DNA of 52,799 nucleotides, from NCBI GenBank assembly GCA_031177865.1, contig JAPSKD010000008.1, positions 1 to 52,799 of the forward strand, written 5' to 3'. Positions 15,014 to 44,584 of this stretch are shown one piece after another. The notes under the pieces were generated by a model. It was not told the origin of the DNA and made no database searches. It saw nothing but the letters and a program-made list of their open reading frames with translations. The translations under genes were made by a program, and so were the position numbers. Position 1 is the stretch's first letter. Each line of letters opens with the position of its first letter. The stretch is from Bacillus sp. (in: firmicutes). GTDB taxonomy: Bacteria > Bacillota > Bacilli > Bacillales > Cytobacillaceae.

Positions 15014-16310
<1,297 letters not shown>

Positions 16311-23433: not shown

Positions 23434-23537
23434 AATATAGAAAAATATGATATTTTGACAATTATGTGAAATAACGCACAATCAGATTGTCAACAGGTTT
23501 AATCACATGGTATATTCTATATGTGAAGTTAATCACA
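23434..23537 (-). promoter_or_regulatory. Promoter with clustered FNR-like palindromes
   Basis: On the minus strand, TTGTCA (23456-23461) and TATATT (23434-23439) are 16 bases apart. Upstream lie TGTGA-N6-GCACA (23465-23480, one mismatch) and a perfect TGTGA-N6-TCACA (23522-23537). A further TCACAT near 23503-23508 pairs with ATGTGA at 23521-23526. The first palindrome is centred about 42-46 bases before the likely start, the class II activator position; the second is near -102. Confidence 0.6.
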
Positions 23538-23602
23538 TCAAACATATACCCCTTTGTTTGACCGTGAAAAATTTCTCCCATCCCCTTTGTTCGTATTAAT
23601 AG

Positions 23603-23637
23603 AAAAAGACCTTGCAGTGATAGCTGCAAGGTCTTTT
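23603..23637 (-). terminator. Terminator after spxH (also usable from the other side)
   Basis: AAAAGACCTTGCA / TGCAAGGTCTTTT, a 13-bp perfect stem with a 7-base loop and A/T runs on both sides, 20 bases from the spxH stop. Confidence 0.92.
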
Positions 23638-42098: not shown

Positions 42099-42171
42099 GA
42101 TCTGTTAGCTCAGCTGGGAGAGCGCAACCTTGACAGGGTTGAGGTCGGGGGTTCGAACCCCTCACAGGTCA
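42099..42171 (+). tRNA. tRNA-Val (anticodon GAC)
   Basis: A full cloverleaf can be drawn: acceptor GATCTGT/ACAGGTC (one G-T) with discriminator A, D-stem GCTC/GAGC, anticodon stem CAACC/GGTTG with loop TTGACAG so GAC is at 42132-42134, and T-stem GGGGG/CCCTC with TTCGAAC. GAC reads GUC and GUU valine codons. No CCA is encoded. Its 3' end is a common integration target, and mobile remnants follow. Confidence 0.97.
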
Positions 42172-42333: not shown

Positions 42334-43182
42334 ATGTCTGATAAAAGGACAGGTAAGCGTGTAAAAAATGTTAGGGCATTACGAAAATCAGCATATAATC
42401 TCGATACGTTATTTCAATCCTTTAAGGGGATTAAACGTGCCTAGGGTAGAGCGGAAAGTACACTAAATCAGTATGAGGATAACTATGGTTACTTTGTCGA
42501 ATATCTCGATAGGCACAATATTAAGCGATCCGTAAAGGATATTACTAAGTCGACCATTCGAGACTACATTGTTTATATGCGCGATAAGTGGGTTAAATTT
42601 GAGGATCATAAGTTTAAGCCGGAGGAATCAATGACTGTAGGACTTTCGCCAGCATCTATAAATACGCGGCTTAAGACCCTGCGCGTAATGTTTAAGTGTT
42701 TGTATGAGGAGGGCTTAATCGACAATAATCCGATGGAAGGAGTTAAGAATGTTAGTGAGCCGGAAGAGGAAATAGTTGTACTTAATGCCGTTGAATTAAA
42801 ACGGATACTCAACGTGCCTAACCAGAGACATTTTGCAGAGTTCCGTGATTATTGTTTAATGAATCTTCTAATTGGCGGAATGATGCGCATAAGTGAGGCA
42901 CTAGGCCTGCGTCATTCAGATGTTGATCTGCCAGCCAGAATTATTACTATACCAGCTTCAATTGCAAAAAGTAGAAAGGCGAGAACAATACCGCTGCAAC
43001 CGAATACGGCCCGCTTAATAAAGGATCTCATTACCGAAAACAAAACGGACTTCGACAACGATTATATATTTTTAACCAACTATGGAGAACAATTAACACG
43101 AGATCACTTTCGTAAGAGATTAAATGGTTACGCTAAAGAGGCCAGTATAACTAAGAAGGTTCATCCTCACTTATTCCTTTAA
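42334..43182 (+). pseudogene. Tyrosine recombinase (integrase), broken
   Basis: The frame opens at ATG 42334 behind AGGAGG but hits TAG at 42442-42444. The same frame then continues with an SAM-like N-terminal domain (STLNQYEDNYGYFVEYL) and the catalytic core, including MMRISEALGLRHSDV with the first active-site Arg. It breaks off at KKVHPHLFL just before the HxxR...H...Y half of the active site, where an IS110 remnant begins. Adjacent to tRNA-Val, it is probably the integrase of an island that entered at the tRNA gene. Confidence 0.85.
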
Positions 43183-44064
43183 TCATAAGTAGTTTTTTTG
43201 CAAAAGGTATTTTGTTGAGAACTTCTTTAACTTGGTGTTCAACTCTTTCGAGTTGTTTTACAGCGAGGTCATATTCCTCTAATAATTGTTCTAAATGGAA
43301 TTTATAAGCATCAAGAGCTTGTCCGGTCCCAATAGAGGATTTTGCTAGATTGATTAGTAACTGAGCTTTCTTTGGTCCTGGTTGTCGTTTCATTAAAGAC
43401 TTCCAACCCCTCATGACATCTAGTGTTTCTAGTGAAGATATTTCATCTGGTGTAGGAAATAAACGAAGGGTTGCAATCGCCCCTTTGCACGTTACATCTT
43501 TAAACACTTGTCTGAGTTCTGGAAAGACCACATCTACCCATCGATTTACTTGATTAATAGACATCACGAGACGTTTAACAATTACATCTCGGTTAGAAAT
43601 TAGAACCCTAAGTTTCTCAAATGATTCCGATGTTGGACGAACAAAGGAATAATAGCCGTTTTTCACCATATCCGCTATAACAAGGGCATCTTTTTTATCA
43701 CTCTTCGATTGAGTATTGTCACGATTCTCTTTATTCCTTTTTACTAAGTGGGGATTCACCGTAACTACCTCAATGTTTTGTTTATCCAGCCATTTTGATA
43801 GGTTAATCCAGTAATGTCCTGTAGGTTCCATACCCACTATCGTTGAATCTAAGTCTTTTAGTCTTTGTAAGTTTTGAATCCAACTTAATAGTTTTACGAA
43901 CCCCTCTTCATTATTTTCAAATGTAAGAGGATCTCCAACTACAATTCCACGGAAGTTAACAGCTCGAGCAACGTGTAATTGTTGGGCTATATCCACACCT
44001 ACAATTAGATGTATATCGGAAATTCTATTAGTTGATTTTGTTTGTCTTGCATTTTAAAATTCAT
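43151..44064 (-). pseudogene. IS110-family transposase remnant
   Basis: The main frame (43151-43996) is the N-terminal DEDD nuclease domain and coiled coil of IS110 transposases: VGMEPTGHYWINLSKWL, VNPHLVKRNKENRDNTQSKSDKKDAL. The C-terminal Transposase_20 domain is missing after LLMIKGIS. At the 5' end a frameshift separates the ATG-containing start MNFKMQDKQNQLIE (44064) from IVGVDIAQQLHVARAV. It is therefore dead. Its 3' break coincides with the break of the integrase within 30 bases, so the IS inserted into or recombined with it. Confidence 0.88.
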
Positions 44065-44277
44065 AGTAGGGCTTCCTCCTTAAGACTTTGAGTTAGATTG
44101 GACTCTATACTCGTATCTTACTGAGGGGCTCTATTTTTTTCAAACCTGAAATTTAACGATCTACAGGAATGCTAACCTGCTCCGTTAGTTAAACAAGCAC
44201 CTTTTCTTCTATTGCACATTATCCTCTAATTGTGATATATTTTTCCGTTTATTGTCGAACTTTTCTGAATTTATTTC
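44065..44277. other. Spacer between IS110 remnant and the riboswitch
   Basis: About 210 bases without a gene. It contains one degenerate copy of a repeat seen further on: CTGCTCCGTTAGTTAAAC at 44177-44194, then TTCTTCTATTGCAC at 44204-44217. Confidence 0.4.
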
Positions 44278-44307
44278 GTTCAATATAGTGAACATTTGTA
44301 GTACAAT
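44278..44307 (+). promoter_or_regulatory. Promoter and GTTCA inverted repeat before the riboswitch
   Basis: TTCAAT (44279-44284) and TACAAT (44302-44307) are 17 bases apart, giving a start near 44314, just before the aptamer. A perfect inverted repeat GTTCA-N6-TGAAC (44278-44293) covers the -35 box. Both half-sites read GTTCnnT, close to the SinR motif GTTCTYT, so autoregulation by a SinR-like protein is conceivable but unproven. Confidence 0.45.
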
Positions 44308-44330
44308 CGTTTCATATGATTGACAATATT

Positions 44331-44411
44331 TAGAAAAAGGCAAACCATACGAAAGTTTGGGTCGCAAAGCTACAGGTCTAAGGTTAAAACTATGATGGTT
44401 GAGATTCCTAA
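44331..44411 (+). promoter_or_regulatory. c-di-GMP-I (GEMM-I) riboswitch aptamer
   Basis: The segment has the conserved GEMM-I elements in order: AAAAAGGCAAACC, a stem CCATAC/GTTTGG closed by a GAAA tetraloop (44351-44354), GGGTCGCAAAGC, ACAGGTCTAAGG, and the closing ATGATGGTT...ATTCC. AGCTA (44368-44372) can pair with TGGTT (44396-44400) using G-U wobbles for P3. The GCAAACC motif is the tetraloop receptor side. The 3' P1 strand CCTA (44407-44410) could alternatively pair with TAGG (44427-44430), which is part of the gene's ribosome binding site, so c-di-GMP binding should free translation (inferred ON switch). Confidence 0.85.
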
Positions 44412-44440
44412 AAATGGTACATATTCTAGGGGGCAATATT

Positions 44441-44560
44441 ATGACTGCAATTGCTAGTGAAAAAGAAGTAGATGAAGAATGGGTGGAACTTATTAGGAAA
44501 GCTTTAGATATAGGTATTCCTGCTGATGAAATTAGAGATTTTCTAAATAAGTTTTCTTGA
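44441..44560 (+). CDS. SinI-like antirepressor microprotein (39 aa)
   Basis: A 39-residue protein starting at ATG 44441 with TAGGGGG ending 7 bases upstream. Its core, DEEWVELIRKALDIGIPADE, aligns with the helix-turn-helix-hook of SinI (DQEWVELMVEAKEANISPEE in B. subtilis), then IRDFLNK. SinI binds SinR and frees biofilm-matrix operons. The N-terminal extension and C-terminal tail of SinI are absent, so it is a minimal SinR-binding module. No sinR is in the window; the partner must be elsewhere. Expression is probably governed by the GEMM-I riboswitch immediately upstream. Confidence 0.85.
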   Translation: MTAIASEKEVDEEWVELIRKALDIGIPADEIRDFLNKFS

Positions 44561-44584
44561 CCTCTATGAGGTCTATTTTTTTTG
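44559..44584 (+). terminator. Terminator after the SinI-like gene
   Basis: GACCTC / GAGGTC with a TAT loop and TATTTTTTTTG, directly after the stop codon. Confidence 0.9.

Follow-up and report, generated by a model that had tools for sequence, protein, structure and literature searches.

The analysed window, a stretch of 52,799 nucleotides from Bacillus sp., carries a c-di-GMP-I (GEMM-I) riboswitch directly in front of a small sinI-like gene, and it is highly probable that this leader acts as a translational ON switch. Both the riboswitch class and its pairing with sinI were known; the new findings are the wide distribution of the pairing and the conservation of the switch architecture across the genus and much of the order. 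The proposed mechanism is as follows. In the absence of ligand the strand UCCUA at the 3′-edge of the aptamer would pair with UAGGG of the Shine-Dalgarno site and hide this site. In the presence of c-di-GMP, which the leader is predicted to bind, the first C of UCCUA (44407) would be paired to the ligand, and the bases that follow it would join the 5′-end of the aptamer to build P1. When P1 is formed the ribosome site would be free and SinI would be made, so that the predicted direction in cells is ON. SinI would then bind SinR-type repressors, and the presumed effect on the biofilm is that matrix genes would be relieved.

An Rfam search of the window revealed a full-length match to RF01051 (model positions 1-87) at positions 44329-44411 of the forward strand, with a score of 71.1 bits (E 5.1e-12) and a gathering score of 35 bits. 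The earlier note had named the GEMM-I elements in their order, and all of them were found in place, i.e., GGCAAACC at 44339-44346, the GAAA tetraloop of P2 at 44351-44354 (+), CGCAAAGC at 44363-44370, and the CTAAGG strand of the tetraloop receptor at 44378-44383 (+), with tetraloop and receptor strand identified by sequence and by RF01051. On the basis of the covariance-model score the leader is classed as a c-di-GMP-I riboswitch, and it is expected to bind this ligand. By model position, the equivalents of G20, A47, and C92 are all found in the window aptamer (G at 44339, A at 44366, and C at 44407), and the G at 44339, which is model position 11, is shared with c-di-GMP-binding members. Position 44407 was taken to be C92 of Vc2, and C92 and C93 were mapped to model positions 83 and 84. 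This mapping fits the positions G11 and A38 given for Bc1 in the accessible part of PMC11218506. The roles of G20, C92, and C93 in ligand contact and P1 are treated in PMC3764141, according to excerpts of which C92 of Vc2 contacts the ligand and C93 closes P1; ligand-contact positions are also treated in an excerpt of PMC4744006. Two further RNA elements of the window were matched, an RsaE/RoxS small RNA at 23523-23637 (102.1 bits, gathering score 79) and a T-box leader at 16063-16306 on the reverse strand (129.7 bits, gathering score 93).

The downstream gene (44441-44560, +) starts with an ATG at 44441, 30 nt after the last base of the aptamer, and ends with a stop codon at 44560. It is preceded by a Shine-Dalgarno sequence, TAGGGGG at 44427-44433 (+), which was read directly from the sequence and leaves seven bases to the ATG. 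The product of 39 amino acids had been proposed to be a SinI core, and indeed its residues 11-36 matched the Pfam SinI antirepressor domain PF08671 with 40 bits (cut-off 31.4). A phmmer comparison with the PDB yielded SinI and SinR chains as the best matches, which were weak (E 0.004 to 0.033). The score against NF046031, the NCBIfam equivalog of the B. subtilis-type SinI, was 39 bits versus a cut-off of 80, and therefore the window gene is described as encoding a SinI-domain protein and is not called an ortholog of B. subtilis SinI. A second SinI of the host genome, encoded on contig C12, likewise stayed below this cut-off (24.6 bits). Binding and inhibition of SinR are predicted for the window protein. 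A terminator-like site at 44559-44583 (+), consisting of GACCTCTATGAGGTC and a T-rich tail, overlaps the stop codon, and thus the transcript is probably a single-gene transcript with the riboswitch as its leader. Next to the window gene no sinR was found, and there was no second SinI-domain match within 700 nt.

The central feature of the leader is that two structures require the same bases. The 5′-strand of P1, UUUAG at 44329-44333 (+), can pair with CUAAA at 44408-44412. The earlier note had suggested that the 3′-strand of P1 can also pair with the ribosome site and that this constitutes a translational ON switch. The pairing was recovered in the local minimum free energy fold, in which a sequestering hairpin at 44406-44431 (+) is formed by 44406-44410 and 44427-44431 together with an inner stem of 4 bp (-3.1 kcal/mol). 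The hairpin includes 44407, the C that is expected to contact c-di-GMP, as well as 44408, the C that closes P1. Hairpin and P1 are thus mutually exclusive, and because the same Cs serve the ligand and P1 on the one hand and the pairing with the Shine-Dalgarno site on the other, the ligand should free the ribosome site. When P1 was forced in a folding model, the ribosome site became more open in 112 of 115 leaders, an effect that is partly there by construction; the set comprised those 115 of 134 leaders in which both inner P1 pairs were possible, as was required. For the window the modelled openness of the site rose from 0.10 to 0.76. The cost of forcing P1 was about 4 kcal/mol in the window leader and averaged 7-8 kcal/mol, in a model that contains neither the ligand nor tertiary contacts, and in the unforced window leader the model did not fold the aptamer. 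The opposite direction, an OFF switch by which c-di-GMP would lower SinI and the messenger would repress matrix genes, has a precedent in Vc2, which is described as translational OFF in the accessible part of PMC9262584, so that the class can act either way. However, ligand and P1 engage the very Cs that the hairpin ties to the ribosome site, and the forced P1 opened this site in the models just described, so that an OFF switch is regarded as quite unlikely.

The sequestering hairpin was found at the same place in most sinI leaders of the relatives. The leaders of the genus have CCUGGAAUAC-loop-GUAUUUUAGG at the 3′-edge of the aptamer, with AGG being the start of the ribosome site, and leaders of the sinR-less type typically have CCUAAAAUA-loop-UAUUUUAGG. 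In local folds both Cs were paired in all 46 distinct leaders of the genus and in 72 of 74 leaders that had been selected without the hairpin pattern. Pairing of the Cs specifically to the ribosome site was found in 70 of these 74 by reading of the folds and in 61 by a strict script. The exceptions were two leaders with unpaired Cs (L130, L156) and two with the Cs paired elsewhere (L145, L155). In two further order-level leaders, which have no anchor and are outside the 74 (L152, L154), the Cs were not paired to the ribosome site. Leaders of the class sample contained the hairpin in seven of 13 cases (L287-L290, L292, L293, L299), and it was absent from the other six (L291, L294-L298). Three of the latter (L296, L297, L298) are aptamer-sinI pairs of one genome (G132, family f73) with a different downstream hairpin, so that the same pairing may be switched in another way there.

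As a comparison, the 27 non-sinI c-di-GMP-I loci among the matches listed for the host genome and the genus were used. Both Cs were paired to GG in only two of them, and in none were they paired beside a ribosome site and start codon, it being the case that only two have a ribosome site near. T runs come after many of these 27 aptamers, and for 25 of them a ribosome site with a start codon is lacking in the next 55 nt, which would be in line with control by transcription termination, a mode used by other c-di-GMP-I switches. For the window leader such a mechanism is nevertheless very improbable, since the start codon already follows 30 nt after the aptamer and a terminator scan of the sequence between aptamer and sinI was empty; termination was therefore rejected for the window. 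The proposed ON switch agrees with the competition between P1 and the Shine-Dalgarno site, which was conserved across the genus and over much of the order, was not seen in the 27 non-sinI aptamers, and is the feature from which the ON behaviour was inferred.

Conservation and covariation were analyzed for both structures. Hairpin cells were paired in 93.4% of the cases, compared with at most 56.8% when the structure was slid along the alignment. Covariation of the hairpin was no better than in shuffles (one pair changed on both sides versus 1.1), and thus conservation argues for the predicted hairpin while covariation is weak. In the 46 distinct genus leaders nine P1 cells were changed on both sides, versus 3.5 in shuffles, and none of 500 shuffles was as high; P1 slid by +1 still had eight such cells, with a score of 0.094 versus 0.118 for the true P1. 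In the same 46 leaders the pair 3/86 was C-G in 31, U-A in eight, and unpaired in seven cases, and the two outermost P1 pairs were mostly unformed in the relatives. A wider P1 analysis used 134 of 158 leaders, with 18 duplicates and six leaders without anchor (L176, L184, L232, L238, L152, L154) left out; over these 134 the three inner pairs were well formed and the two outer pairs were below shuffles.

The earlier note had proposed a survey for GEMM-I aptamers near genes of the SinI family, and this revealed that the pairing recurs. In the genus, at least 47 aptamer-SinI pairs were found in 33 of 40 genomes, with a distance of 45-66 nt between the aptamer and the SinI domain. This count was based on 150 of the 249 c-di-GMP-I matches listed plus two rows of the host genome, and on 148 SinI rows, two more rows of the list being left out for a score under the Pfam cut-off. 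Among the matches listed, 47 of 94 short SinI frames of the genus had no aptamer, and six of these were later shown to have one. Of the 47, 14 were searched directly with Rfam; five were positive and added five genomes, and one additional genome (G025) has a leader that was read as sequence and matched by the leader model. The pairing was thus present in 39 of the 40 sampled genomes; at the SinI locus searched in G006 no aptamer was found. Many sinR-less SinI genes of the genus are without a listed aptamer, and therefore the pairing is not universal for SinI copies.

In the order sample SinI was found in 38 of 61 genomes. Aptamer-sinI pairs were present in at least 27 of the 38, namely in 17 of 37 genomes, in the host, in seven genomes added by a direct search, and in two more from 11 further loci. 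For this count the host was left out of the SinI rows, and the aptamer rows were hand-picked on SinI contigs among the matches listed. Of 42 unpaired rows 20 were searched, eight with a positive result, followed by 11 loci, 10 of them new places; two of these 11 loci were positive for c-di-GMP-I. Among the positives, L153 scored 57.5, short of the cut-off of 59 for its best family, and the SinI match of G098 is below the Pfam cut-off. The class sample contained SinI in 17 of 121 genomes, and 10 of 13 newly examined ones have the pair, as read by eye. A DNA pattern comprising the 3′-end of the aptamer and the hairpin was used to screen 84,980 species genomes and yielded at least 119 loci. All of the 80 readable loci lead into an open reading frame of 37-56 amino acids that matches Pfam SinI; the genera named in their records include Neobacillus, Peribacillus, Metabacillus, Mesobacillus, Cytobacillus, Rossellomorea, Sutcliffiella, Gracilibacillus, and Oceanobacillus. 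Because the pattern itself contains the hairpin, these loci were left out of the count of 72 of 74 leaders given above. No match to RF01051 was obtained in 14 control genomes, including that of B. subtilis.

Several individual loci of the survey deserve mention. Two records, Chryseobacterium sp. ISL-80 (L177) and Paenibacillus sp. BSR1-1 (L213), have a leader of the Bacillaceae type together with sinI, and their titles may be wrong. Two weak aptamer matches in a row precede sinI in Bacillus sp. MUM 116 (L184, 7695-7999), in Rossellomorea marisflavi (L232, 2062-2302), and in L117 (G002:C128). These are possible tandem or degenerate c-di-GMP riboswitches; an Rfam search of L117 revealed no aptamer.

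The host draft genome (5.43 Mb, 486 contigs) contains five c-di-GMP-I matches and five SinI-domain matches, and two of the five aptamers precede a sinI gene, i.e., the window copy and a copy at C12:26270-26357. The C12 sinI has its own c-di-GMP-I riboswitch and is convergent with a SinR-like gene, which encodes an HTH and a SinI domain. The classical sinI-sinR arrangement is thus absent at the window gene and present at C12 of the same genome. Upstream of the window sinI there are a tRNA-Val gene (42099-42171), a tyrosine recombinase fragment behind it (42577-43182, +, PF00589 with 87 bits), and an IS110-type transposase fragment (43151-43996, -, PF01548 with 111 bits and below both NCBIfam IS110 cut-offs). 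The window copy is an extra, sinR-less member of the family in a recombined region. Two further SinI genes of the host also lack a sinR and have no match to the leader model or to an aptamer (L007, G000:C413:6528-6608; L010, G000:C368:1896-1976).

Riboswitch-sinI copies also occur on plasmids. A plasmid search with the window query matched 25 records, one of which covers most of the query. This closest match, a plasmid of Mesobacillus foraminis (87% of the query, 76% identity), carries an aptamer and a hairpin of this kind, and its gene is annotated as "anti-repressor SinI family protein". Two Priestia plasmid matches, annotated SinI, cover 64% of the query, and the other Priestia plasmids listed matched in the aptamer part only (24-34%). 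With the C12 leader as query, only partial matches to five records were obtained. Eight phage records (E 6e-3, 46 bits, 18% of the query) were rejected as chance matches; they were E. coli phages, mostly with tail-fibre genes. The sinR-less copies L302, L303, and L304 have unlike neighbours, and the copies of the riboswitch-sinI pair on plasmids and in recombined regions are read as putative mobile extra cassettes. On a plasmid of Priestia aryabhattai (NZ_CP128553.1; L308, 3004-3408) two convergent SinI genes were observed, the first behind a c-di-GMP-I aptamer (83.5 bits), and they adjoin an AbrB-type and a Spo0E-type gene.

This genomic context raises the question whether the window copy is a decaying extra with a non-working switch in an otherwise working family. 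Its hairpin is the weakest among 47 genus leaders, the energies ranging from -7.0 to -12.6 kcal/mol in 31 sinR-side leaders and from -4.2 to -11.2 kcal/mol in 15 others, it adjoins the integrase and IS110 fragments, and the SinI genes at C413 and C368 are without aptamer match. On the other hand, the aptamer still scores 71.1 bits, the open reading frame, the ribosome site, and the terminator-like site are intact or present, all five P1 pairs are possible, and the modelled openness of the site rises from 0.10 to 0.76. Decay is therefore judged to be rather unlikely, albeit the least unlikely of the alternatives, and a working translational ON switch is the preferred reading also for the window copy.

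With respect to the identity of the ligand, 131 of 134 leaders, including that of the window, keep G at the position of G20, and the host has 13 GGDEF matches, two of which are apparently pieces of one interrupted stretch. Three leaders have A at this position (model position 11), L104 (G031:C2:3242066-3242149), L105 (G031:C2:6343737-6343820), and L155, the anchor of which is doubtful. The change to A was studied in 3′,3′-cGAMP-bound GEMM-I, according to the accessible part of PMC6274999, and from their sequence these three leaders might sense another dinucleotide. That the window leader itself responds to another cyclic dinucleotide, e.g., 3′,3′-cGAMP, has hardly any likelihood in view of its conserved G and the GGDEF matches of the host. 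An unrelated riboswitch class points in the same direction. One sinI of G090 is preceded by a c-di-GMP-II aptamer (RF01786, 63 bits, cut-off 53.5), which is separated from the SinI domain by 71 nt (L317, 44-278; G090:C1:4366003-4366237, -). By eye, ACCTCC at the 3′-end of this aptamer could pair with GGGGGAG of the ribosome site. A search of 70 genomes yielded 35 class-II matches in 28 of them, and this was the one case observed beside a listed SinI match. That a second riboswitch class with the same ligand stands in front of this gene family speaks for c-di-GMP as the signal that matters.

Transcription of sinI may also need Spo0A, which would be a second input. The sequence TGTCGAA at 44253-44259 (+), found by direct reading, resembles a Spo0A box and is a possible site of transcriptional input; we take TGTCGAA to be the core of this box. 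A weak candidate -10 element, TACAAT at 44302-44307 (+), was found by direct reading only; it was not reported by the promoter scan, and a good -35 element for it was not found. In the 250 nt upstream of sinI riboswitches TGTCGAA occurred in 19 of 78 regions, compared with 1.2 in shuffles (maximum 3), and GACAAAA, which was picked post hoc from enriched 7-mers, occurred in 49 of 78, compared with 5.8; the 78 regions are related and thus the counts are not independent. Spo0A activates sinI in B. subtilis according to excerpts of PMC8876208 and PMC8470499. A scheme in which Spo0A drives transcription and c-di-GMP gates translation fits the motif count and may apply here. If Spo0A is also needed for transcription, sinI would be an AND gate.

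The earlier note knew of no description of the pairing; however, the association had already been printed. In the accessible part of Irla et al. (2015; PMC4342826), a study based on Rfam and RNA-seq, a putative "(c-di-GMP)-sinI" riboswitch is given for BMMGA3_08510 of Bacillus methanolicus MGA3, in the 5′-UTR of sinI as in the window. That report concerns one species, with one table row and one sentence, and its accessible part gives no platform, direction, distribution, or test. Compared with other known systems, the window leader shares the RF01051 aptamer fold and the ligand-contact positions with Vc2 of Vibrio cholerae, but Vc2 is the OFF switch mentioned above, whereas ON is predicted here because ligand and ribosome site compete for the Cs. 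Within Bacillaceae, the Bacillus cereus group likewise has c-di-GMP-I switches, namely Bc1 and the leader of cbpA. Bc1 differs by two terminators and a long platform (excerpt of PMC11218506), and the cbpA "on" riboswitch differs in that it precedes an adhesin gene (excerpt of PMC7793685). The latter source, the MogR paper, describes in the same excerpt that sinI is up at high c-di-GMP in B. thuringiensis and makes no claim of a sinI riboswitch there. The sinI-sinR pair of B. subtilis resembles the host genes in the SinI domain and, at C12, in the location of sinI next to sinR, but B. subtilis has no RF01051 match. A sinI riboswitch is not mentioned in the accessible parts of PMC12747935, PMC6143707, PMC3764141, PMC4744006, PMC11218506, PMC9262584, PMC6274999, PMC10240345, PMC8876208, PMC4879592, and PMC8470499. 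Within the open-licence literature, subscription journals being outside this scope, no description of the platform and distribution of the sinI riboswitch was found.

SinR and SinI form the textbook matrix switch, which was worked out in B. subtilis. Our judgement is evenly balanced as to a more general reading, in which RNA-based control of SinI by c-di-GMP is a widespread and, as we infer, probably old wiring of Bacilli, with sinI as an AND gate that responds to Spo0A in transcription and to c-di-GMP in translation, where ligand and ribosome site would compete for the Cs. This wiring would have been reinvented with c-di-GMP-II in G090, would be missing in B. subtilis among others, and would have extra cassettes that move on plasmids and in recombined regions. 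If c-di-GMP sets SinI translation in this way in many Bacilli, it would reach the matrix repressor by RNA, without a protein receptor, and B. subtilis would be an incomplete guide to biofilm control among its relatives. The general question of how c-di-GMP promotes biofilm formation in Bacilli would thereby be narrowed to a reporter question on a single leader.
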